DNA from: Taeniopygia guttata
Lineage: Eukaryota > Chordata > Aves > Passeriformes > Estrildidae
Assembly: GCF_048771995.1 (NCBI RefSeq)
Contig: NC_133026.1
Span: forward strand, 149,753,001-149,817,000
Direction: 5' to 3'
DNA: 64,000 bases
Position numbers and translations under genes: made by a program. How positions within the stretch are numbered: position 1 is the stretch's first letter; every line of letters starts with the position of its first letter. Positions 1 to 59,800 of the stretch are shown here, in pieces. The notes under the pieces were generated by a model. That model had not been told where the DNA came from. It was given only the letters and a program-made list of their open reading frames with translations, and did not search any database.

Positions 1-118
1 TGGATGGGGTTTGGAACACCCTGAGATAGTGGAAAGTGTCCCTGTCCTTGGCAGGGGTGGAATGAGGTGATCTTGGAGGTTCCTTCCAACTCAAAACATT
101 CTGGAATTCTGTCATCAG
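1..118 (+). mobile_element. CR1 LINE 3' end, cut by window edge
   Basis: The text TGGAAAGTGTCCCTGTCCTT followed by GATCTTGGAGGTTCCTTCC and a TTCTG tail is the sense 3' end of a CR1. Confidence 0.85.
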
Positions 119-982
119 CACAGACTTCATCAAGTACTGCCCTGACACCACCGCCCAAACCTAGGATGGATTTTAAGGCTGTTATTTAAGGTAAAAACCT
201 GAAGTTTGGTTTTTTTCCTGCTGTCGAAGTTATCAGTGAATTTGGGCCCTCCACTGGATTTGTAATTTTCCAAGTGTGTAAAACAGGTTTTGTAATCCTG
301 GTCGCAAAGAGAGATTATCCCTTTACTCTCTTGGGCAAATATGTTCTGGGTGAGGAAGGGTTTCACACCATTCCAGTGACACTCAGAGTATTCTCAGTCC
401 CTGAAATTCCCACAGCAGAAGAGCACAGAGAGTGGAGATCCTGCAACAAGGGAAATATCTGAGTTTATTTAGTTGAATAATCAAATCAGGTAAGGGCAAA
501 ATAGACCAAAGTAAGGTCAGATGAGAAACTCTCCTGATATTTCAGTCGATTAAAATGAAGCTGGAAAAAGACATTTCTTCTTGCACTAACCCAGCACAGA
601 CCTCAGAGTCCCAAATGAGTAAATTCAAGTTCTTTTTTCAGCTTTCTAACCTTTTTCTTACATTTTTTTCTTTCTTTCTGTTCTTTTTTTTTTAATTTTA
701 GTCAGTTTTTAAGTGCTGTTTTTCAGAAAGAAGAAGCCAAAAAGCTCATTTTGAAGATGTCAAGATTCAATTCCCTTAGAAAAATACAAAACACTTTATG
801 CCTCTAAGTGGTTCTGTAAGATTGATAAATACTGATTTTTTACATTATTTCAATTTTTTTGAATGTAGTATTGTCTGAGCATGTGTAGGAGGGATAGAAT
901 CAACGCATCAACTCCGTATCAGAAAGATGAAGGCTTTCAGTGAGCTTGGGAATTCCTGGTTTTGCAGGATATAAATTCATGG
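119..982. other. No gene seen
   Basis: AT-rich unique sequence with T-rich runs near 660-700. No repeat or gene recognised. Confidence 0.5.
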
Positions 983-1290
983 GATCAGAAAATGGTTTGG
1001 GTTGGAAGTGACCGGAAAGATCATCTAATTCCACCCCCTGCCACGGGCAGGGACACCTTCCACTGGACCAGGTTGCTCCAAGCCCTGTCCAAATGGTCTT
1101 GGACACTTCCAGGGATGGGGCAGCCACAGCTTCTCTGGGAATTCCATTACAAAGCTTCCCCAACCTCACAGAGAAGAATTTCTTCCCAATGCTCCATCTA
1201 AAGCTAAATTCCTTCATCTTAAGGCCATTCCCTTGTCCTGTCACACCATGCCCTTGTAAAATTCCCACTCCAGCTGCCTTCCAGACATAT
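983..1290 (-). mobile_element. CR1 LINE fragment
   Basis: Antisense 3' end beginning AATGGTTTGGGTTGGAAG and running through GGGATGGGGCAGCCACAGC into the AGAATTTCTTCC segment; about 300 bp. Confidence 0.9.
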
Positions 1291-1861
1291 GAATTAACGA
1301 GCTGAAAGTTGATAAATATCCAAGATGAAACGACTGAAAACTACACACACTGCAGGCTCACTTTAATTTAACAGGATCCTAAAAATCCCTAAATTTATCT
1401 TAAAAGTAAGGAAAATGGCCATGTATTCCAAAAAAATCACCACAAACTGTGTCAAGAATCGAGCTGGACGTACAGAGCAACTCTCCTTTCAATTCTTAAT
1501 GATTAAAAATCAGCTGTAAAAATAGAAAAAACTGCCTTCAACTCATCCTTGGTACAAATAAGTGTTGCAAATTCCTGGGACAAATTCCTGCTCCATGATG
1601 GGCTCGAGCACCCCGGAGCAGTTCGGATGTGATAAGTGGAGCCATTAGAGCCCATTGTGTCAATAATGGAAATTTCACAGCCTTCCTAATTACGTGGAAA
1701 AAGGAGATCCAGGGGAGCAGTTGGGCTGTGCACACACACAGGGCCTGCCTGGAAAGTCAATAAATATGATTTACGGCACTGAATGGTGCAATCGCTTTGA
1801 TTAAAAAAGGAAATGAAAGACAAAAAAAAGGCTAAAAACAAAGGAAAAAAAGAAACAACGC

Positions 1862-1965
1862 AACCTGGTCTAGTGGAAGGTGGCCCTGCCCTTTGCAGGG
1901 GGGTGGAACTGGATAATCTTTAAGATCCCTTCCAACCCAAATCATTTTATGAGTCTATAAAATAA
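1862..1965 (+). mobile_element. CR1 LINE 3' end
   Basis: Last 100 bp of the element, from CTGGTCTAGTGGAAGG to CCAACCCAAATCATTTTATG. Confidence 0.85.
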
Positions 1966-2157
1966 TTTGTATGTGCAGTCTTGGCTCCATCTTGGCTTCT
2001 TCTTTCAGCTGTCCTGAATAAACAAATAAAGGAGCCCATCAGTGTAGTCACAATAAAGAAAGAAGAACATAAAAATTACCAAGTAAAAATTATCAAGAAT
2101 TGATGATCTTTTTCTCAGTTCTGTAAGTGCTTGGCCTCACACACCTTCTGCACCATT

Positions 2158-2450
2158 TATGGAATCATGGAATTATTACAGCTGGAAAAGACCTCTGAGG
2201 TCATCCAGTCCAACCATCAGCATGGCCAGAGCCACCACTAATCCCTGTCCCCAAGTGCCACATTCACAAGGCTTTTGAGCACTTCTAGGGATGGTGATTC
2301 CAGAGTGTTCCAATTCTTCCAGTGAAGAATTTTTTCCTGATATCTAAACCACTCCTGGTGAAACCTGAAGTGGTTTCCTCTGTGAATACCTCTGCATTTT
2401 GGGTCTTGCCCCAGAAAACATAGGGATGGTTCCCACTCTGATTTTGAAGG
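2158..2450 (-). mobile_element. CR1 LINE fragment, older subfamily
   Basis: Opens AATCATGGAATTATTACAGC and has the AAGACCTCTGAGGTCATCCA text typical of a different CR1 subfamily from the first two copies. Confidence 0.8.
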
Positions 2451-3002
2451 GGATTTCAGTAGTTTGAGGCAGTTAATCTATCACTGGACTGCACCTATTC
2501 CAGGTGACTCCCTACTCTGAGAGCCAGGAGCAGTAATAAGGTAGTTTTTCATTAATTAATGAGTGTAGGTCCTATGACTCTCTAGTGATTTTCATCTGGA
2601 ACTGTCAGAAGGTAAGGAAACAATAATGATTGCAGTCAAACCTGGAAGACTCTGGGACAAAATTGGAAACCTTATGAGTTTACCTGGCGTAGGCAGTCAT
2701 TTTCCAGTCTCATCTCCCTTTCCCACCTCCCATCCTCATCCAGTCCATGTTCCTCCAGTGCAGTTTTGGCCATCAGTCCTCCTCCCTTCTCCACACAATC
2801 TCTCTTTGCTCATTCTCTCAGACCTCCCTCACTGAAGCAACCCCTGATCTTGTGTTCTGTGGGAATGGGCCATGTGGATGATGACAAGGACAGATTTTTC
2901 CCTCTTTAGCGTTTTTCCTGGTTTGAATTCCCACAGTGTACAGTGGAGTTCTGCCCCCCTCTGCTGGAAGAGCTCAGCACCTCCAGCTGAGCTCAGTACC
3001 CT

Positions 3003-3165
3003 CAAATTTCCTGAATTGGAAGGGACCCAAAAGGATCAGCGAATCCAGTTCCTGGCCCTGCAGAGAACACCCCAAAAATCCCATCAAGTGCCCGAGAGCA
3101 TTGTTCAAATGCTTCTTGAACTCTGGCAGGGTTGGTGCAGCTCTTGCTGTTTTGTTCTGCAAGGA
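3003..3165 (-). mobile_element. CR1 LINE fragment, third subfamily
   Basis: Carries the antisense TTCCTGGCCCTGCAGAGAAC and TTCTTGAACTCTGGCAGG text of the CR1 group whose sense form reads as at 35500-35925. Confidence 0.75.
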
Positions 3166-4244
3166 TCAGGTTGTTCATGGCACTTTCGGCCATGTCCATA
3201 GACCATGAAAAGCCTAAACCGGTTCACCTGTAGCTTCTCTACACTGTCACAGGTTGGGGTGACACTGGAAGAACTTTTGTCACTGGTCTGTCCCCTCAAT
3301 GCTTTTTTTCCCTGCAATTTTCACTGATTCTGGCAGCAAAAGCAGAGTTAAATGGTGGAACCAAGTCGCACCTTCAAAAGTTTCCTTCTCAATCTTGCCA
3401 AGAGTTTGTGGTTGAAGAGTTGCAAAGAGCTGGAGATTCCAAGGTCAGCAGCTCTCCTTGAGGCATCTTTGGCCTTCAGATCGTCTTTGCCTCTCCAACC
3501 TGAGCTCAAAAGGGATCTCTGGGAGGTCCATTGGGCATTTATTCCCTGTTGTAAACAGAATTACTCCTTTTGTTTCTCCAGCTGACCCACTCAAGTGCAC
3601 ATTGCCAGTTGCAACCCACCTTGGACCGTTTTACTTCGTTGGAGAAAGACCAGGGATGGAGCAGGGAATGGGGCTAAATCCATCTGAGTGCAAAGATTTT
3701 CTGGACAAGGATTTGCAGAGGCAGAGTCTTTTAGCTGAACATCTTTGGGGCCAATCAATCTATTGCTAAAAATAAACATTTTGTTTCAAAACACTTTGAG
3801 CTCCTTTCCCTGCTGTGTTCCCTGACTACAGCCTGGATAACCCCAGGATGTTTTAGAGGTAATGAACCCAAGGAATTGAGAATGCATCAGATAACAAAGC
3901 CCCAGCTCCTGGATCTCTGCTGGGTGTGGGTGCTTATCACCCACAAAGGCTCTCTGGTTGTCAAAGGGAGCTGATTGAGGTTTAATTTCTTTACCTAGTC
4001 CTGTCTTGCCTCAGGTCTTCTGTGAACGGCCCCTTCTCCCAACCTTATGGGCTACATCTGACTCAGTTTTGGGGTCTGAACAACTCAGTGCATTTCATTT
4101 TTATGCCAACCACATGCTTTTGCTGAGAAGAATTATTTTTATAAGCCAGATAACCCCAATAACCCCAAATTTTCAGTGGGCAGTAGATACTTGAGTCACC
4201 CATGAACCAAGGAAGAAAGACCAGAAAATGAGGCAGGAAGCGAT
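3166..4244. other. No gene seen
   Basis: Unique sequence downstream of the presumed ARC 3' end. Open frames here are short and unlike any protein I recognise. Confidence 0.4.
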
Positions 4245-4264
4245 TGAAGCAGATATTTCAAAGT

Positions 4265-4270
4265 TTTATT
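4265..4270 (-). terminator. ARC: Candidate ARC polyadenylation signal
   Basis: The minus strand reads ATACAATAAAACTTTGAAA, a canonical AATAAA with TGTA just upstream. A T/GT-rich stretch lies 25-50 nt downstream (toward 4215). The 400 bp before it look like ordinary 3' UTR without repeats. Assignment to ARC rests on strand and on the absence of any other minus-strand gene. Confidence 0.5.
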
Positions 4271-5116
4271 GTATAAATCTACAAAAGGCTTTGCTACAAT
4301 AGCAAATAGAGTGTAGCACTATTCTATCCACAGGCTCTAGTGGCTTGGGGTGATCTTGTAACTCCAACATGACACATGAGGAATAAACTGCCTGATCCAG
4401 TCAGATCCAGGGCAGGTGATGTCGGCTTACAAAGACCTTTTGGCTTCAACCCCTACAGCCTGCAGCGATTCAACGTGTTTGCCTTTTGCACAAGGTTGCT
4501 TGAATTAATAATATCTCTAGTAAAAATAAAAACTCTAAAGTTGTTTCATCAGTAAATGCAAAATCACCTAGGGAGGAAAAAAATGCAGTGGTTGAAATCT
4601 GCTAAAATTCTAGAGGTACAACACATCCACGCTTCTCATTCACGTGACTCTGCCCCAGGAAAATAAACTACCAGTCCTTCCTGGAGAGGCTGGTAATAAA
4701 AACCAGGGTGCTACAAGTAAAGCTCCAATTTGCTGGGAGCAGCAATTGAAATCAAATCAGTCCAGGAGATTCAGTTCTGCACACTCCAAAAAGCCAGCTG
4801 AAAATGTAAAAAACTCAGGACCAAATGTAGCACAGACAGGCTAATTCCCTAAAAGAGCAGGAAAAATAAAATGCCTATTGAGGCAGTCTAGTCCCTTGGA
4901 AGAGACTGTGGAAATTAAGCACCTCAAAATCAAATATAATTTAGACCTTAAGATAATGCCTGGGAATCTGCCTTTACATGGTTTTATGGAATTTTCCAGT
5001 CCTGGACATTTTTGCTGAGCCTTGTTGGAATGTGCCTTAGGTCCCTCTGGCTTAATTCAAATGAAACAAAACACCACAGAATTTAAGTAATGTGGATATT
5101 TTTTTTTTTTGCTCAA

Positions 5117-5163
5117 CACACACACACCCCCACACCCACACCCACACCCACACCCACACACAG
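5117..5163. repeat. (CA)n/(CCCACA)n microsatellite
   Basis: A run of ACACAC passing into CCCACA hexamers, preceded by a T run. It lies inside the presumed ARC 3' region. Confidence 0.95.
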
Positions 5164-7050
5164 GACAGTTGGCTCTGGAAGAGAGAGGAACCAACTAGAC
5201 CTCTTCGGCTGAGAGATGAACCAAAACTGTCTTGTCCAGCTCACTCGAGCTCTTTTTGGGCTCCCTGGGTCTGGATGGAAACAGTCACTCCAAAGCCAGC
5301 ACAAGAACCCCAGTTCTTGCAGTAACTCTGGCCCATGCAGACCCAGAGAGCGCCTGCTGTCTCACGAGGCTCCTTGCTGGCAAGACAGCTGGCCCAGATG
5401 TGCAGGCTCCAACAGTTCAGACAAGCATCTGGACGGTGGGATGCTTCTCCAAACTCCGGGAGCCCTTTGAGGTTTGGAACTGATACCCGCATGAAAGGAC
5501 TCAGGAGAGGTGAGTTACAGCACGGCCAGCGGGGAGGGTTCGTAGCCAAGGCAGGATCAGCCCCTCGGCAAAGTTAATCAGGAAAGTTTTTTTCAGTGAA
5601 GATCACTTTCTAGTGAAGATTTCTTCAGGTGAGTCCCAGCAGCCCCAGACTGCAGAGGTGCAGAATTCTCTCCACAGACAGTCAGTATCCCTGCTGTACC
5701 CAAAGCCTGGACTTGGTTCTTCTGTTCCAGCCTCTCTTTCCATTCTCAGCACTTTCCTCTGTGCTTGGAGTACCTGGACCAGCTCAGGCTTTTCTCTGTC
5801 CTGCTGGAAGCAGCTTCCCAGCTTCATTCTGGCTCTCAGCACCTTGAATGTTTGCATTGCACTGCATGGGAGGCTCTTTGGTGCATGATTTGCCCTCTGT
5901 CTTCCTGCAGCACTTTCTTCTCCCCCGGGAAAGCTCCTGGACACAGAGAAGGAATCTCAGCAACAGCCGCAAGGGATTGCTGGAAAAGGAAAAAAAAAAA
6001 TGCACCATGATTAGATTTTTGAAGTGGGTAGAAAGTGGGGATTCTAAGGAGCTGGGATTAAATTTTGCTGTGCCTGCAGACTGGAGGACCCACCAGCTGT
6101 TGGGGTCTAAGGATTTGCCCATGGTCCAGCCAAGGGAAAGCCACAATGTGCAGTCCCTGGAGCATCAATTATTGGGGCTGGTGCTTGGTTTCTGACACCA
6201 AAGAGCTGAAATTTCACCTCTCTTGTGGTGCCAGGCTGCTGCAACCCCTGGGACTGAGGTTTCAAGACCAGCACAGGTGTTTGCACCTGGGCTGTTCAAT
6301 ATCTCAGGGCACTGGGGAGATAAAGGAAGGCCCACAAGGTAATATGGGATGTAATTACCTGTGCCAGTGTTTCCTTCAGGTGGTGGATCTGGCTGTTGGT
6401 GGCTGAGGGTCCTGAGAGCAGGTCTGATGTTGAGGCCTTTGTTTTGCAGCTTTTTCTGTGGCTTTCCTCCCAAATGCTGCATGCTGCGAAGTGATTCCTT
6501 CTCAGAGGAGGATCTGAGTGAGTCACTGGAAGCAAGAGGAGACAAAGCTTGTAATGCACGGCCAGCTCATCCTCAGCAGTGACTCCCACTCCCCCGTCAC
6601 TCAGCCCGGGTCATTAGTGAGAAATGCTCCTTTCCCTGCACACGGAGCTGTTGACAAACTGGGAACAAGTGAGAGGAGAGCTCCCACCATTCCCGAGACC
6701 AGCTCCCAGCAAGGATGCAGAGCAGACCTGCAGCTCCTCCGGGCTGTGCAAGGACCTGAAATGTGCTGCCTCAGGTGGGGACTCAAGCCCAGAGGCTCTC
6801 CATGAAGGACAAGGCAGGTCCTGGGGCTGGGCTAATTAAGAAGCTTCCCATTCTTTTGCCACATTAATCAGAAAGGATTAATATAGGATATCAGGGATAC
6901 TGCCCTCTTTGGAAACTTTTCCCTTTCCTGTATTTCCCTCGGGCTGTCTCTCCCTTCCCCTTTCTCCCAACTCCAATGATTCATATCCCATTTCATCTGA
7001 GTTTTTATCCCAGGGCAAGTTTTCTACAGGACATTCTACGACCAGTTTAG

Positions 7051-7158
7051 TGTGGATATTCTCAGTTCAGTCAGAGAGAAACAGAGAAAGATTTTTCCCA
7101 GGCTCAGCCTGCAGAAATCTTCATCTGTTTCTCTCTGACTGAACTGAGAATATCCACA
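7051..7158. repeat. 108-bp near-perfect hairpin (inverted repeat) in ARC 3' region
   Basis: The arms 7051-7094 and 7115-7158 are reverse complements over 44 bp with only two mismatches; the outer 35 bp are perfect. A 20-bp loop separates them. The arm starts TGTGGATATTCTCAGTTCAG. A GTTTAG direct repeat lies immediately outside both ends (7045-7050 and 7159-7164). This could be a small foldback insertion with a target-site duplication, or a quasi-palindrome made by template switching. If transcribed with ARC it would form a stable stem. Confidence 0.9.
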
Positions 7159-7191
7159 GTTTAGCTCTGAGGAGAGAATGCCAGAGAGCTG

Positions 7192-7198
7192 CCTTACC
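7192..7198 (-). other. ARC: Candidate splice donor in ARC 3' UTR
   Basis: On the minus strand the sequence GCTGAAG is followed by GTAAGGCAG, a near-consensus 5' splice site with the intron starting at 7197. It would put the nearby hairpin just inside an intron. The matching acceptors were not identified. Confidence 0.3.
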
Positions 7199-8740
7199 TT
7201 CAGCCTCTTGGAAGGAGTCACAGCAAAGGCCTCCTGAGCCACCAGGGCCACATGTCACCACTGTGGCAGTGCCGGGAGCATCCCAGGGTCACTCCTGCTG
7301 CTGCATCCCTGCTGTTTATTTGGTCTGGTGGTGGATGCAGATGATGCCCAAGATGTGTCCAGCCTCAGGAAGCTTTGGAGAGCCAAACTTCAGGAATGTC
7401 CTTCTTCTCTCAGTCCTGTCATCAAACACTGGCCAAAGGTGAGTGCTGAGCGTTTCCTGTCTCAAACATGGAAGAAGCCACAAAGTCCAAGTCCATCTCC
7501 ATCTGTGGCGAGATGTTGCAGGAATTTCTCTGTGAGCAGACAGCACTCTGTCCTCAGGTGCTCCAGGACAGGGGTGCCAGGCTTTCCAGGAGCATTTGGA
7601 GTCTGTCTGTGTGAGCAGAAAGTCCTTGCAGCCATGCACAGGCTAAAACTGGGCTGGGGCACACAGATCCTCTCTTCACTTCTTTTGGCTTTTACATGGC
7701 AAAAGCTCCTGTTGTCTCCACACATCAGCATGGACTCGATTTGCTGCTCTGGGGATATTTTGCTCTGAATTTAGGGTGTGTTTGTTTGTTTCATTCAAAG
7801 AATAAGGATTTATTTCCCTTCCCTCCCCCCCAGTCTCTCTCAATAGAGCTCTGGTGTCTCCTCTCTCTACCTTGAACACCCTTTCTTCTCTGAAAGGAAG
7901 AAAGCTGCTCCTACAATAAATGAGCTCAGCATTTAATTAGAAAATCTGTTTCCTGCTGAATTCACAGGATAATGTGCAGAGAAAGGATGAAATCTGCCTC
8001 TGCACTGCAGTGGCCTTGAACTAGAGTGAGCAGAAACTAAGACAAGAAGTAAACCAGTAAGAGCCTCTTGAGAGGAAACACATTAAAGCAGGTATTAGGT
8101 GCAGTGAAATGAGTACCACAGAAAATAATCCAGATCCTTAAAGCTTTCAGTTCCTGAAATAACAGGTTTTTTTTTTTCTTCTTATAACAAAAAATAATCC
8201 AAAAAATTGCTTTAATCCTTTGGAGCAAGTAAGAGCAGGAGATTGCCAAGTGAACAGAAACCCAGAGGTTAATCAAAAACAGGCAAGGGTCAAAAAGAAA
8301 GCTGTCTCCTCAGGACAGGGCCTCCCTCAGAGGAGGGAGGAGAGAAGGAAAAAGAGAGATCCAGATGGGTAGGAACCCTCCAGCAACTGCTGCACTCGTA
8401 TAAAGTCCTTGAGAGCTGCCAGTGCCGCTTCACAAGTTGGGAATTGTCTCTAGTTTCTTGTCAGGGAATTCTCATAAAATTGGCTGTTCCCCGCAGTGGT
8501 GCCAGCAGGGTCCCCAGCACCACTGCTTGGCACGGCCTGGGTGAGGGGGGCAGCCCCATCCTGGGGCGCCTCTCCCACACCACCTCCCTCCCCCCAGGAG
8601 CAAAGCCAACCCCTCTGCTCTGGGCTGTTGGACTGAGCACTCCTCAGGTCTCGTCTCAGCCAGAACTTCCCTCCAAGGAGAAGCTTCCTAAATTAGCCCC
8701 CTTCTCCCTTCCACGGAACCCAGACCCCCCTCGGGGGAGC

Positions 8741-9955
8741 TCATATGACAGTGGCTGGGGGGCTGGGGGGCTCTGGTTGAGTCCCGTTGCTCGGCACGGG
8801 ACTGGCGGTGGTTGAGGGGGGCACGGTCTCCACGGAGTCTCCTGGCTGAACCTCAGGGGTCCTCTGTGGGCTGGGCTCCTCAGAGTGCTCCATGTTGCCT
8901 TGGGCTTCCTTCCCCCTCTGGATCAGCTGCTCTAAGGTCTTGGGCAGGGGGTAGCTCAGGAAACGCTTCAGTTTGGGCTGGAGGGTGCCTACCACGTACT
9001 GGATGATCTCCTCCTCATCTGCATCCACATAGAGGGTCTGGTACAGGTCTCTCTTGCGCCAGAGGAACTGATCCAGGGGCTCCCCCTCTTTCTGGGGCAA
9101 ATCCAGCTCCCTTTTGATCGCATCCCTAGTCAGAGTTCCCTCGCTGTACTGCAGGAACTCCTTCTTGAATTCGACCCAGTTTTTGACGGAGTCCTGCTTG
9201 TACTCCCACCACTTTTTAGCTGGGCCGTTCATGTGGTTTTGGATCTGAGACAGCCAATACTCCTCTGTTCCACCCACCTGCTTTAAGTATTCCTCCAAGT
9301 GGCTCAAGAACTCCCGGGGATCCTCAAACACCTGGGTCTCCACCGGGGAGGCTGGAGCGTCCTCTGACACGGAGACCCACTGGTAGGAATCGTGGCCCTG
9401 GGGGATGCTGGGCACCTCTCCGGGAGGAGGGGTCAGGGCATACATCTGGCTCATGTCCAGGGCATAATCATAAATCTCCCCCTCACTTGGCCTTATCTCT
9501 GGGCCTCCCACCCCGACAGACACCGTCTGCTTGCCCTGCTCCCCAGGGCAGTATTTGCCTCCCATGGACTCCAGGCGGTCAGCCCACTTTTCCAGGCGGA
9601 AAAAGACCTCCTTCCAAACATTCATCTCCCTCTTGACCCACCTCTCCAGGTGGGCAATGGTCTCCTGGCACCTGATCAGGCAGGCCTTGATGGACTTCTT
9701 CCATCTCTGGTTTTCAGTTGGGACGTGGTCCTCTAAGTTGTTCTCCAACTTCCCCACGGATTTCTGCAATCCCTTCAGCTCCCGCTCCACCTGCTTGGAG
9801 ACCTCTGTCAGGAGGTGCCGGTGGGTCCTCCGGACATGCTCCAGCATTTCTGCCCTGCACTTCCCTATCTGCAGGATCACATTGGGCTTGTTGGCCACCC
9901 CACGGTGCCCCTGGAAGGAGTGGACGCCCGCGCTGGTGACGTTGTCCAGCTGCAT
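8741..9955 (-). CDS. ARC: ARC, activity-regulated cytoskeleton-associated protein (404 aa, complete)
   Basis: ARC is a neuronal immediate-early protein of dendrites and postsynaptic sites. It drives AMPA-receptor endocytosis and homeostatic plasticity, and it can assemble Gag-like shells carrying RNA; this is established for mammals. The frame is open from the first in-frame ATG (9955, G at -3) to TGA at 8741. The N-terminal basic, helical domain covers about residues 20-135 and opens with the near-invariant KPNVILQIGKCRAEMLEHVR. The oligomerisation motif reads MNVWKEV (111-117). A variable Pro-rich linker spans about 136-206. The Gag capsid-like N-lobe is about 207-278 (EDPREFLSHLEEYL, NHMNGPAKKWWEYK), and the C-lobe is about 279-355 (LDLPQKEGEPLDQFLWRKRD, YVDADEEEIIQYVVGTLQPK). 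No zinc knuckle is seen, as expected for ARC. Human ARC is 396 aa. Oddities are ACLIRC where mammals have ACLCRC, and a tail running past TQPE to end in ATVI. The coding region is a single exon, as in other tetrapods. Confidence 0.97.
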   Translation of the reverse strand: MQLDNVTSAGVHSFQGHRGVANKPNVILQIGKCRAEMLEHVRRTHRHLLTEVSKQVERELKGLQKSVGKLENNLEDHVPTENQRWKKSIKACLIRCQETIAHLERWVKREMNVWKEVFFRLEKWADRLESMGGKYCPGEQGKQTVSVGVGGPEIRPSEGEIYDYALDMSQMYALTPPPGEVPSIPQGHDSYQWVSVSEDAPASPVETQVFEDPREFLSHLEEYLKQVGGTEEYWLSQIQNHMNGPAKKWWEYKQDSVKNWVEFKKEFLQYSEGTLTRDAIKRELDLPQKEGEPLDQFLWRKRDLYQTLYVDADEEEIIQYVVGTLQPKLKRFLSYPLPKTLEQLIQRGKEAQGNMEHSEEPSPQRTPEVQPGDSVETVPPSTTASPVPSNGTQPEPPSPPATVI

Positions 9956-10457
9956 GGCTCCGACCGTGCGAGTGGCAAACACGGAAAGAACTGGGTTATA
10001 AGCCCTGGCACTAAAGCTGGATCCCAAAAGCCCCCACCACAACACTGCCTGAAAGACACACAGAGACTTCTAAACCCCACTCCAAGGACTTTTGGACACA
10101 AACACAACCCAGTCAGATATCACCGCAGAGCGAGCCGGTCGGTCCACGTGGATCCCAGAGAGAGTTGTAGGCAAATTTCTCCCGGTGCCAAGCTGGAAAC
10201 GCCGGTCTCACGTGTTCAGGGGCGTCCCAGAGAGAACCAGGATCCTCCAGGAACAGGGAGAGGAGTTGGATAGGATGTCCAATCCCGCCGGGAATCTGGA
10301 GCGCCGCAAAGTCCCCGCCGGAGAGAATCACAGAGATGCACAAAGAAGCTGGAAGCTGCAGCAAAAATCCGGGTGATTTCTCCTCGGGCAAACTAGGTGA
10401 GTCAAAACCCGCTTTCACTGGAGATGCAAAGAGCTGCTTCTCCTCCCCTGTCTGATC
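9956..10457 (-). other. ARC: Predicted ARC 5' UTR
   Basis: This is the stretch between a start site placed about 25-30 bp below the TATA box and the ARC ATG. It is CpG-rich and contains no ATG on the transcribed strand in any frame, although several would be expected by chance in about 500 nt. An AP-1 consensus TGAGTCA lies at 10398-10404. The start site is inferred from TATA spacing only, and an unrecognised leader intron cannot be excluded. Confidence 0.6.
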
Positions 10458-26619: not shown

Positions 26620-27160
26620 AGTTTGAGAAAGCTGAAACCTCATCGTGTTCCAACAGGTTTTGGGAAAATCTGAGCCTCAGCAGAGCTGAAGTAGCTCAGC
26701 TGGGAGAGCATTAGACTGAAGATCTAAAGGTCCCTGGTTCAATCCCGGGCTTCAGCAGAGTTTTCCTGCACTTTTGTGTGCCCAGGGATGGGCTCTCCAG
26801 TAGAGAAGAGACCTGGACATCCAGGACAGAGTCCAGCCAAGGGCCAGCAGCACTGGGAGGGACTGGAAGGGACAGGAGCATCTCTGCTGTGGGGAAAGGA
26901 GGAGAAACTGGGCCCAGTGGCCTTGAGAGAGTCTGGAGTTCCCCTTCTCAGACCCGGAGGTGGTCGGGGGCAAGGGGCTGTAGGTCCTGCTTGAGCAGGG
27001 CTTTGGAGCAGGGACCTCCTTGAAGTCCCTTTGGTCCTCAACCAGCCTGAGCCTGTGAAAGAGGGACAGGGTTTTACAATTTAAGTATTTTAGCAAAAAT
27101 CGTGATAGAAAGGGATTTTTTTTCCTTCCACTGCCTGTTCCCAATCCTGTGGCCTGCCCT
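26620..27160 (+). repeat. Left arm of inverted duplication carrying tRNA-Phe
   Basis: About 540 bp match 41560-42095 in reverse complement at very high identity. Shadow translations of the two arms agree at 98 of 100 residues. The arm holds about 65 bp upstream of the tRNA, the tRNA itself and about 400 bp downstream. The downstream part includes a piece of internal CR1 sequence (from about 26780). Homology ends at about 26620 and 27160. Confidence 0.9.
26685..26757 (+). tRNA. tRNA-Phe (GAA), copy 1
   Basis: This 73-nt gene folds into a full cloverleaf. The acceptor stem is GCTGAAG paired with CTTCAGC, and the discriminator is A. The anticodon loop CTGAAGA has GAA at 26718-26720. The A box is TAGCTCAGCTGG and the B box GGTTCAATCC. 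A TTTT polymerase III terminator follows at 26761-26764. It differs from the other three copies by A instead of G at position 26. It lies in the left arm of the inverted duplication. Confidence 0.97.
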
Positions 27161-27375: not shown

Positions 27376-27448
27376 GCTGAAGTAGCTCAGCTGGGAGAGC
27401 GTTAGACTGAAGATCTAAAGGTCCCTGGTTCAATCCCGGGCTTCAGCA
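27376..27448 (+). tRNA. tRNA-Phe (GAA), copy 2
   Basis: The 73-nt sequence is identical to copies 3 and 4. The anticodon GAA is at 27409-27411, and a TTTT terminator lies at 27452-27455. Unlike the other three it lacks the shared flanking segment: homology stops just outside the gene, apart from the short trailer CAGAGTTTT. It is probably an older, independent copy in the cluster. Confidence 0.97.
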
Positions 27449-37311: not shown

Positions 37312-37520
37312 TGGCCCTTGGATGGATCTCTCCTAGATGTCCAGGTCTCTCTTGTATTGGAGAGCCCATCCCTGGGCACGCAAAAGTGCAGGAAAACTCT
37401 GCTGAAGCCCGGGATTGAACCAGGGACCTTTAGATCTTCAGTCTAACGCTCTCCCAGCTGAGCTACTTCAGCTCTGCTGAGGCTCAGGTTTTCCCAAAAT
37501 CTGTTGAAATACAATGGCCT
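37312..37520 (-). repeat. Third, shorter copy of the tRNA-Phe segment
   Basis: About 210 bp share homology with both duplication arms, from the CR1-like stretch through the tRNA to the upstream text near CCCAAAATCTGTTG. It is visibly more diverged than the two long arms. It ends abruptly at the CR1 3' end at 37305. Confidence 0.85.
37400..37472 (-). tRNA. tRNA-Phe (GAA), copy 3
   Basis: The minus-strand gene has intact internal A and B boxes and all stems paired. Its terminator is TTTT (AAAA at 37393-37396 on the plus strand). Its flanks match copies 1 and 4 over about 210 bp in total. It sits directly next to the 3' end of a plus-strand CR1 copy. Confidence 0.97.
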
Positions 37521-41559: not shown

Positions 41560-42095
41560 AGGGTAGTCCATGCCACAGGACTGGGAACAGGCAGTGGAAG
41601 GAACAAAAATCCCTTTCTATCACGATTTTTGCTAAAATACTTGAATTGTAAAAACCCTGTCCCTCTTTCACAGGCTCAGGCTGGTTGAGGTCCAAAGGGA
41701 CTTCAAGGAGGTCCCTGCTCCAAAGCCCTGCTCAAGCAGGACCTACAGCCCCTTGCCCCCGACCACCTCCAGGTCTGAGAAGGGGAACTCCAGACTCTCT
41801 CAAGGCCACTGGGCCCAGTTTCTCCTCCTTTCCCCACAGCAGAGATGCTCCTGTCCCCTCCAGTCCCTCCCAGTGCTGCTGGCCCTTAGCTGGACTCTCT
41901 CCTGGGTGTCCAGGTCTCTTCTCTACTGGAGAGCCCATCCCTGGGCACACAAAAGTGCAGGAAAACTCTGCTGAAGCCCGGGATTGAACCAGGGACCTTT
42001 AGATCTTCAGTCTAACGCTCTCCCAGCTGAGCTACTTCAGCTCTGCTGAGGCTTAGATTTTCCCAAAACCTGTTGGAACATGATGAGATTTCAAA
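41560..42095 (-). repeat. Right arm of inverted duplication carrying tRNA-Phe
   Basis: This is the reverse-complement partner of 26620-27160, with arms about 14.4 kb apart. Identity is high enough to suggest either a recent duplication or ongoing gene conversion. The outer boundary near 41560 abuts a minus-strand CR1 (41060-41520). Confidence 0.9.
41969..42041 (-). tRNA. tRNA-Phe (GAA), copy 4
   Basis: The minus-strand gene is identical to copies 2 and 3, with a terminator at 41962-41965 (AAAA on the plus strand). It lies in the right arm of the inverted duplication, facing copy 1. G20, the GAA anticodon and A73, which are tRNA-Phe identity elements, are present. Confidence 0.97.
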
Positions 42096-55590: not shown

Positions 55591-56339
55591 TGTATTAATT
55601 TTAAGGTGCAAAATCACATCAGTCCATTCAAGTGGATAAGGAGCAGTTTTCTTGTAGAGTTTTGCAGCATTTAACACAATATCTGAGATAGCAAGGAGGG
55701 AAAACTTTATAATTTTGAGTTATGCAAGAGAAAGTTGTATGAATTATTGTGTTGGAAATTGAATTTAGCTGAATTTAGCCTTGAAACAAGACAGTTATTT
55801 CCAAGAAGTGGAAATAATTATATTCACTTGGAGTTTAGAAGTGGCATAATGTACTGAGTATTCCCTGGAATCTCTGAGATAGCAGAGTTTGCTGATAATC
55901 AGAATTTACCATTTGTTGGTCCTTTTGAAAGACATCTTTTAAATGAGGAAAAAAGCAAAAATCATCCACATTTCCATGAAACTGGAAGCTCCGAGCTCCC
56001 AGAGGTTGTTCAGTAAATCTGACACTCCTGTACACTTCATTACTAGCTGGCAATTAGCAAGCCCATTAAATGCTGGTTAATGAGAATACTAATTGCACTG
56101 AGCAGCTGCAGGTGGTTCCCAGCACTCCCAGTTCTGGGGCAGATCCTGCATCTCACTGCCCAAGGCTGGGAAATATCCATCTTCCAAAATCCCCAGCTCT
56201 GGAACAGCCCTAGCAGAGCCACCTGCTCCAGAGCTGGAGAGGGCACAGCAGATAAAACACCCAGCTCTGGATAAATCCAGAAAAGGACCAACATGATGCA
56301 AGGAAAACTGTTCTTGGCTTTGAGAAACACAGCTCTGGG
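55591..56339. other. No gene seen
   Basis: Unique AT-rich sequence. Confidence 0.5.
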
Positions 56340-56890
56340 CTTGATGAAGGGTCGTGGAATGAACTGGGGTAGTGGTGAGGCACCACCAGTGCTGGGGTCA
56401 GTTTGGGGGCCTCATGACAAGAAGAACATTGAGGGGCTGGAGTGTGTCCAGAGAAGGTAACAGAGCTGGGAAGGATTTGGAGCATCAGGAACAGCTGAGG
56501 GAGCTCGGAAAGGGGCTCAGCCTGCAGAAAATGAGGCTCAGGGGGCATCTTCTGCATCTCTACAATTCCCTGAAAAGAAATTGTGGTGGGATGAGGGTCA
56601 ACCTCTTCTCCTAGGCAATGAGAGCTGGGAAAAGAGGAAACAGCCTCAAGTTGCACCAGGTGAGGCTCAGGTTGGATATTTGGAAAAATTTCTCCACTGA
56701 AGGAGTGACAAAACATTGGAACAGGCTGCCCAGGGAAAGGTTGGAGTCACCATCCTGGGAAAGTGTTCAAACATCCAGGCTGACCTGGCACTTTGTGGTG
56801 TGGTTTAGTGGACATGGTGAAAATTCAGCTAGAGGTTGGACTTGATCTTGGAGGTCTTTTCCAAACTCAGTGATCCTCTGAACCTGAAGG
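56340..56890 (+). mobile_element. CR1 LINE, second subfamily, about 550 bp
   Basis: GGGGCTGGAGTGTGTCCAGA, GAACAGGCTGCCCAGGGAAA, GGTTGGACTTGATCTTGGAG. One of the longest copies here. Confidence 0.9.
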
Positions 56891-59800
56891 AAATTTAAAA
56901 TAACATCTTTCATTCAAAGGTTCTGTAATTTTCATGTGTTTTTTTGTGGCAAAAGGAGCACAATGGGAGCAGCAAGGTTGATTCTGGGAGGGAGGAAATT
57001 AGAGTCCTGTGGCAGAGCAGGCCCTGGTGTTCCTTTAAGAGGGGAACTCAGCTATGGAGTGGCTGGATTGCAAAGGGGTTTTCTTCCCAAAACCTTTATA
57101 CCTGTGGCTTGCAGAAATGAAATATCATCCCGATTCCCCCTGTGTGACAAATTCCTGTCACTGTGGCAGCATTGGGAGCCCAAAGTACAGATAAACCACT
57201 GCAGCTTTTGATGTTAATTCCAACAGAACCTTCCAGCATTGAAAGTTCAGCATCATTAATAATACAAAAACCTTTGAGTGCAGCACTCCACCCCCAGCCC
57301 TGCACTCCACACAATCAACTTACTTTACTTTTATCTAATTACAAAGCATTACTCACGAGAATGACGGATTATATTACTCACTATTATACAATTTCTGTGT
57401 TCTCCAGTCCTAACAAAAAGAAAGTACAGAAAAAGAAGTTATTTGATGAAAAAAAAAATACTCCCCTTAATAACAAATGATTTAATTTTAAGAAAGAATT
57501 TTGATGCCAAGACACAACTTTTGCTGAATTTGCCAGTTTGATTCAAACTTTTCCCATGTTTGAAATCTAATAAATGCCATATGAAGTAATTCTGTAGTGA
57601 GCTTCAAATTTGTCACTCTCATGACTAATTCCTTTTAATTAGACTTAACAACATATAAGAAAAAAAAATGTCATCATTTAAAGTGAAGTCAGTGATGTAT
57701 TGATTGGATAAGGACTTAACAGCATAAGTAGTTTCTTAGAAAATGATTCAAGTGAGCATATTTTTAATTTCAAGCCATTTATTTTCTTTCTCCTGGGTCC
57801 CATTGTACATAACAGCAATATCTTTCCTGATTTTCCCTACATCCCACGCTCAAGGTGCATAATGCTTTATGGAATTCTGCTCATAAACATGGTCATTTCA
57901 AGCATATGAATTAAAATTATTAAATATTCTGATAAAATAAGGCCTTTTGAAGACATCCAGAAGAGAAACAGCCCCCATATCCAAATTATTTGACCACACT
58001 TGATACATGGCTGTAACAGCAAAGACAAAAACAATGGAAATTTATCCCCAGATATTTGATGAAATAAAATGTGAAAAGGCAGATTGTTGGCATCACCTTC
58101 CAGCCATACATCCATGACATCACTCGGGATCATCCTGCACCACTTCACAAAATTTGAACAAGTTTGCAAGATTTCTTTTTGCTTGTATGGAAATGTCTGA
58201 AAAAACTCCTCTTTGGGAGTTGAGATGAATCTTCGTGGAGCTCTCTCCAGTTCAGAATTTCACTCTTTTTTTATGAGAGTTGCCTTCAGCCTAAATGAAT
58301 TGCCCAAAATTGTGTCATCTTAACCCAGATATTTTTAAAGCATCACTGGAGGTTATTTCTTAGCATCACCATGGTCATGGAAATATCTACAATGATGAAG
58401 GGTTAATATTGTACTTTTATCCGTGTTTGCTTTCTCTGGAATTTCCTCCTCTTGTTCTGCTTTTTATACAGAATGAAATGAAATTTTCACTGAATTATCA
58501 TTTAAGATGGCCTGAGTAAAACAACAGATCCTGAAAAATCTGTCCAGATTCTAAGCCATTTTTCATCTCCTACAGTGCACGTGTCCTTCCCAGGCAGAGC
58601 AGCCTTGAGGGATGGCTGCTGAGTCTGGGATCGTTCAAGTAATTCCCAATATTTCTTTGCAGGCAGTTACTCCACCCTCAGCAGTTTGGATTTTCAGAGA
58701 ACTCTTTTGGGAAGAGGGGTAGGAAATTAAACTAGTTTGGGAATTCAGTATTATATTTCTTCTCCTTTCCTTATTCCGAAAGTGCTGCAAAACAATTAAC
58801 TTAGTCTTATTCATTAGTCTTATGCTGATGAACATCATCGTTGACATCTGAGTGACCTCCTGAATTAGGAAAGAAGTGCTCTTACCCTTATGTCCATTGA
58901 CAAGGGTTGATTTATAGTAATTAAATAGTTGCTTGATAGAAAGAAATAGTTGATCTACAGCAATTAATGAAGAATCCAGGAGAGCAGGGATAGACCTGAG
59001 ACCTGGGGCAGGACAGGAATTCCTGGAGTTCCTCTTGGGCAGAAACCTGGAATTTCTCAGCAGCAGTTCCACAACATGATAGCTCACAATGCACAAATAA
59101 TGAGGAATTATTAAACCTGTAGGATTTATTATGGAATAAATACCAGAAAAGCCTTAGGAATATCAGAAATACTGAGACTACCAAAGCAGAGGGATGTTCT
59201 GAGTACCAGTCCCTGACCAGGGGAAGGAAGACCATCTAACTTTAGCTGATCATCTTCTTGTGTTTTCCTGTGTTTTTTGGGAGCTGAGGGGAAGTATTAT
59301 TAAGCCTGTAAGATTTTCCAGTATCAAACACACATTTTATTGCACCCAGCCCATTCCCTTTTTTCCTTCTCTTTTGTCATACAGTGGCAGTATCCTATGG
59401 AAACACTTGGTAAGGATGCTCTAGGAAGATAAAAACATTGACTGTTTGAGCTTTGGAATCATCTTAAGGATTTGTGTATTTAGTTCTGAAGTATCTTGTG
59501 CCCATCTTGTCCCCCCATGGGACAAAATCGGACTGTGACACCCACGACTTTTAAAAGACTTCAGTGCCTTCTATAAAAACTCCTTTGGAGCAATTTTAGC
59601 ACAGATTTGCCAATGTAATTTGTGCCTCCCATACAGGGTTTTCCAAGAGAAATACAAGGTTAGATGAATTGGTTAATCCATAAAGCTGATCAGATGGATT
59701 TCTTGCCATTCCACACAGAATTTCTAGTGATAATTACCATGTTCATGGTTCTTGCACTGACAAAGGTGAAGAAAGAAAAAAAGTGAGGTTTTTTTCACCA

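Follow-up and report, generated by a model that had tools for sequence, protein, structure and literature searches.

A near-perfect palindrome flanked by direct repeats downstream of ARC in Taeniopygia guttata: inserted element or template switch

Introduction

How does a palindrome of 108 bases come to lie between two copies of the same short word, downstream of the ARC gene? The question is raised by a hairpin in Taeniopygia guttata, located in a 64,000-nucleotide stretch of contig NC_133026.1 (assembly GCF_048771995.1, positions 149,753,001 to 149,817,000, forward strand); this whole stretch is referred to below as the window, and all coordinates are counted from its first base. We asked whether the hairpin exceeds chance, whether its arms and its flanking repeats are better explained by insertion or by copying within the locus, and whether a role in the ARC transcript is probable.

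Results

Structure of the hairpin

The two arms are complementary over 44 bp with 2 mismatches and are separated by a spacer of 20 bases (Table 1), exactly as the initial annotation had described them. The "20-bp loop" of that description holds as the length of the spacer, but not as a loop, since the spacer is itself mostly paired and closes on a tip, CAGGC-TCA-GCCTG, which consists of a 5-bp stem and a 3-base loop. Taken whole, the element forms a near-complete palindrome, with 53 + 52 bases about this 3-base tip, in which the outer 35 bp are perfect (35 of 35; 7051-7085 pairs with 7124-7158). When the two halves of the palindrome were aligned, 48 of 53 columns were identical; the differing columns (36, 37, 45, 47 and 48, one of the five being a 1-base gap) all fell within the inner 18 of the 53. 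The hairpin (7051-7158, 108 bases) starts with TGTGG and ends with CCACA, and no reading frame of at least 120 codons overlaps it. The G+C content of the left half, 41%, is ordinary for the locality; among 54-bp stretches with starts at 5000-8999, 15% have a value as low.

Table 1. Coordinates of the hairpin, its flanking repeats and other features of the window
Feature	Position	Strand	Basis or remark
Left direct repeat CAGTTTAG	7043..7050	+	GTTTAG at 7045-7050, flush with the arm
Left arm	7051..7094	+	Outer 35 bp perfectly complementary to 7124-7158
Spacer between the 44-bp arms	7095..7114	.	Mostly paired; tip at 7099-7111
17-base exact match to dispersed repeat copy 56514-56530	7101..7117	+	blastn; may be chance
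Right arm	7115..7158	+	
Right direct repeat CAGTTTAG	7157..7164	+	GTTTAG at 7159-7164, flush; CA common to the arm
Possible splice donor AAG/GTAAGG	7192..7200	-	Approximate donor score
AATAAA	7315..7320	-	Ahead of donor and hairpin on the ARC strand
AATAAA	7809..7814	-	Downstream of the ARC stop, ahead of the putative donor at 7197
ARC coding region	8741..9955	-	Reading frame; start is the MQLDN methionine, counted from the translation
tRNA-Phe (GAA)	26685-26757	+	Rfam
tRNA-Phe (GAA)	27376-27448	+	Rfam
tRNA-Phe (GAA)	37400-37472	-	Rfam
tRNA-Phe (GAA)	41969-42041	-	Rfam

The hairpin is far beyond chance. The longest other exact inverted arm in the window (gap of at most 300) was 14 bp, compared with 35 bp in the hairpin, and 20 Markov simulations of the window yielded best exact arms of 11-14 bp under the same gap limit. 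When 7030-7180 was folded as RNA, the plus strand gave -89.8 kcal/mol (z -12.7) and the minus strand, which is the ARC strand, -84.9 kcal/mol (z -11.9); on either strand, 0 of 200 shuffles were as good. The earlier contention that a stem so long and clean rarely arises by chance was borne out by both the simulations and the shuffles.

The flanking direct repeats

GTTTAG directly abuts the region of maximal complementarity at both ends, as had been claimed, although the stretch shared by the two sides is really 8 bp, CAGTTTAG, rather than 6 bp; the CA of the right copy doubles as right-arm sequence. Among 1,701,360 sampled position pairs of the window at a spacing of 80-159, a flush direct repeat of 6 bp was present in 910 (0.05%), one of 7 bp in 286 and one of 8 bp in 86 (0.005%). 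Allowing 3 bases of slack on each side, which gives the fair figure if a slightly displaced repeat would also have been accepted, a 6-bp repeat accompanied 1.9% and an 8-bp repeat 0.18% of 200,000 random placements. That the flanking repeat arose by coincidence is unlikely but not impossible.

Possible insertion of a preformed palindrome

We give about even credence to the reading that a preformed palindrome was inserted at a staggered cut, in the manner of a MITE. A ready-made palindrome of ~108 bp, TGTGG...CCACA, would have entered a site downstream of ARC in a single event; the target would have been cut with a stagger of ~6 bp, and gap filling would have yielded the two copies of GTTTAG. 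The donor would be a short, non-autonomous terminal-inverted-repeat element (MITE-like or foldback), with its transposase or integrase presumably supplied from another locus, and the empty site before insertion would have been a single CAGTTTAG joined to CTCTGAGG. Such an insert probably has no selected role at the locus and, if transcribed, would simply fold.

Insertion at a staggered cut directly predicts flush repeats, whereas one template switch within the locus predicts no direct repeat at the hairpin ends. It also predicts that the flanks hold no arm-like sequence, and this was borne out: in four arm-flank comparisons, the observed score was equalled by 173, 283, 410 and 413 of ~2,000 random window stretches, respectively, so that there is no sign of the arms having come from adjacent sequence, and their derivation from the flanks was rejected. 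Pairing between the two flanks beyond the repeats was likewise attributed to chance (1,700 of ~2,000 random stretches were as good). The central placing of the arm differences, we infer, fits elements whose ends matter most.

Several observations tell against insertion. The G+C content of the left half does not stand out from its surroundings; the 2-base overlap that lengthens the repeat to 8 bp is not explained by a 6-bp duplication and would arise by chance about 1 time in 16; no second copy was found within 64 kb, though a stretch of that length is too short for one to be expected; and the ends, taken with the repeat length, fit none of mariner, hAT and piggyBac. Of the origins put forward in the initial annotation, a tiny foldback element flanked by a target-site duplication still fits best.

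Template switching as the main rival

The other origin proposed for the hairpin, a template switch during replication or repair with snap-back copying, is the main rival and a realistic one, which we consider less probable than insertion; both weights were judged rather than computed. In its one-step form, a growing strand carrying the imperfect inverted repeat AAGATTT...CAGGC-TCA-GCCTG...AAATCTT would fold back, make a perfect copy of 35 bases of its own upstream sequence and then rejoin the original template. An imperfect inner repeat that primes perfect outer copying would leave a perfect outer 35 bp with the differences inside, as seen, and the probability that all the differing columns fall in the inner 18 of 53 by chance is 3.5% if they represent three independent events and 0.3% if they represent five. 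The tip, with its 5-bp stem and 3-base loop, also speaks for such a fold-back. Novel human microRNA hairpins, MIR633 among them, have been reported to originate from template switching (PMC8794818, in part), and fold-back of a palindromic 3' flap has been proposed for small inverted triplications (PMC13334657, in part). The one-step form, however, leaves the flush GTTTAG to coincidence (0.05% to 1.9%, depending on the slack).

A two-switch form would repair this weakness, in that the strand would leave after GTTTAG, copy a donor elsewhere and slip back 6 bases by way of CA microhomology; the slipped return on CA accounts for the flanking repeat, and the CA by which the right repeat overlaps the arm would serve naturally as microhomology. 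This form requires a donor that is unseen, none having been found in the 64-kb window.

If all 5 differing columns postdate the palindrome, K between the arms is 0.10, which, if rates of 4e-9 to 1.5e-9 are assumed, corresponds to an age of 13 to 34 million years. Since the inner differences could have been there from the start, we do not rely on this estimate.

The ARC setting and a possible role in its transcript

ARC is encoded on the minus strand; the hairpin is downstream of its stop, ~1.58 kb from the end of the reading frame. Pfam matches in the frame (8741-9952) were Arc_MA (E 5.4e-60), Arc_C (5e-48) and capsid (4.7e-45). When donors on the ARC strand were scored with approximate weights, the best within 4800-8745 was the one whose GT begins at 7197, at 7.4 bits compared with 4.9 for the runner-up. 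The putative donor on which the suggestion of an ARC intron around the hairpin rests is indeed the top-scoring candidate, but two minus-strand AATAAA (beginning at 7814 and 7320) precede both donor and hairpin, so that the ARC transcript may end short of the hairpin; two minus-strand ATTAAA (8216 and 7937) also lie ahead of the putative donor. The AATAAA pair bears on the position of the ARC 3' end. ARC mRNA is reported to carry two conserved 3' UTR introns (PMC5934489, in part); the words "chicken" and "vertebrates" each occur 0 times in PMC5934489.

These data bear on the proposal that the hairpin is a functional, transcribed part of ARC, its stem lying in a 3' intron and being microRNA-like, siRNA-like or edited; we consider this improbable. 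The stability of the ARC-strand fold, the good putative donor immediately ahead of the hairpin and the conserved 3' UTR introns noted above all favour it, and the two AATAAA ahead of the donor count against it. A search of 6950-7250 against Rfam returned 18 matches at E <= 10, none of which reached its gathering score, the best being MIR173 at 40.1 bits compared with 70; several of the sub-threshold matches were to plant and animal microRNA families, on both strands, and we take them as a response to stem shape. Ordinary animal pre-miRNA stems are shorter and less perfect than this one. We found nothing beyond the fold in support of a microRNA or editing role, the earlier pre-miRNA-like idea included.

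Rfam gathering scores were reached in the window by four tRNAs only, all tRNA-Phe (Table 1). The bodies of three of the four are identical, and the copy at 26685-26757 differs at one base. With 400 bp of flank on each side, this copy and that at 41969-42041 have 525 bp in common, the tRNA included, at 97% and in opposite orientation, a likeness that suggests an inverted segmental duplication.

An artefact of assembly or amplification was also considered. Some sequencing libraries contain inverted chimeras, but a chimera is not expected to give flush direct repeats, and it should join exact copies, whereas the arms carry five differences near the centre; we hold an artefact to be most improbable.

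Searches for other copies

A 15-mer from the arm end, searched with up to 3 mismatches, had 4 matches in the 64-kb window, namely 2 in the hairpin and 2 with 3 mismatches each, a number within chance expectation (mean 2.4), and a 21-mer from the inner arm, under the same limit, matched only the two hairpin arms. With the hairpin as blastn query and 7001-7200 masked, the window gave 5 matches of 11 to 17 bases and no second copy; with 5401-8700 as query and E <= 1e-3, it gave only the self match and the hairpin's own arms.

The longest of the short matches identifies 7101-7117, over 17 bases, with 56514-56530 (E 3.5e-4 within the window), and this 17-mer was found nowhere else in the window within 3 mismatches. 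The region 56201-56900 has 12 other window matches at E <= 0.01, the strongest near 31.0, 35.5, 43.5 and 2.2 kb, and so holds a dispersed repeat, which we take to be a diverged CR1-like one. A CR1 origin of the hairpin tip was rejected, and the match is noted as a curiosity: it ends abruptly, and insertions do not normally consist of an internal piece of 17 bases.

No exact match to a 24-base arm sequence was found among viral contigs or among bacterial and archaeal genomes, which is the expected outcome with animal DNA, and no relatives of ARC were found in the viral contigs; these collections may omit records of the window's own genome, and relatives are not expected in them. Of arm pieces of 13-15 bases looked for in the literature, only 13-base ones occurred, in papers whose titles are unlinked to the locus (mouse skin; psoriasis-like dermatitis treated with a plant oil; a locust peptide), and literature on MITEs, palindromes and bird DNA transposons did not yield a recognised description of the element, which is no proof of its being unpublished.

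Comparison with element classes

In structure, the hairpin resembles a MITE of any superfamily, being short and non-coding with terminal inverted repeats, and the GTTTAG flush on both sides is a putative target-site duplication. Candidate superfamilies were compared in turn. For a Tc1/mariner MITE of the galluhop type, TA is present inside both repeats (7048-7049 and 7162-7163), but the resulting ends, GTGTGG and AACTGTGG, are asymmetric. Elements of the hAT type have an 8-bp duplication and symmetric ends; the 8-bp CAGTTTAG is present, but the insert it would delimit (7051-7156, TGTGGATA...TATCCA) has ends that are 2 bases out of register. A piggyBac MITE was rejected, as piggyBac duplicates TTAA and TTAA is at neither end. 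Retroviral-type integrase leaves TG...CA ends and a duplication of 4-6 bp, and the TGTGG...CCACA ends with the flush 6-bp repeat, a putative duplication, agree with this pattern. Identity with a long terminal repeat was nevertheless rejected: such a repeat carries a polyadenylation signal and is not palindromic, whereas the whole insert is palindromic and AATAAA is absent from both strands of 7051-7158. We file the hairpin under no superfamily.

Discussion

The hairpin is a good specimen of an ordinary kind, and known systems resemble it from both directions. Made1 is a human MITE of mariner origin with a TA duplication. Like the ARC hairpin, it is a short, near-perfect palindrome, in which two 37-bp terminal repeats surround 6 bp, and it forms a stable RNA hairpin; it differs in that it forms a family of multiple copies, among which there are many potential mir-548 paralogs (PMC1784062, in part), only one copy of the ARC hairpin being known. 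The ARC hairpin, for its part, has a flanking repeat of 6 to 8 bp and no known small RNA. The galluhop MITEs of the mariner group are non-autonomous inverted-repeat elements of birds, as the ARC hairpin would be if inserted, but they measure ~500-600 bp and have TA duplications and imperfect terminal repeats; their copies number 5 to 10,158 per genome, all forms pooled (PMC5556988, in part). Template-switch hairpins of the MIR633 type resemble it in having, at one locus, a reverse-complement repeat that is nearly perfect, but were inferred from reconstructed ancestral histories (PMC8794818, in part), whereas the ARC hairpin is read from one sequence. By our reasoning, a one-step switch does not predict the flush direct repeats.

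A more specific form of the insertion reading is that the hairpin is one member of a family of tiny full palindromes, fairly young and so far undescribed, with TGTGG...CCACA ends and 6-bp duplications, and that an integrase-like enzyme, not any DNA transposase known from birds, would move them. We regard this as highly doubtful; if it were true, the copy past ARC would be a ready-made double-stranded RNA stem beside an activity-induced gene.

Should the hairpin be a mobile element, the palindrome would point to a small foldback family, in which every copy would be flanked by a different 6-bp repeat; should it be a one-off, it records snap-back copying with unusual legibility. In both cases, and although the fold does not demonstrate that the hairpin downstream of ARC is put to use, it is a clean, raw hairpin of the sort from which small-RNA genes can arise.
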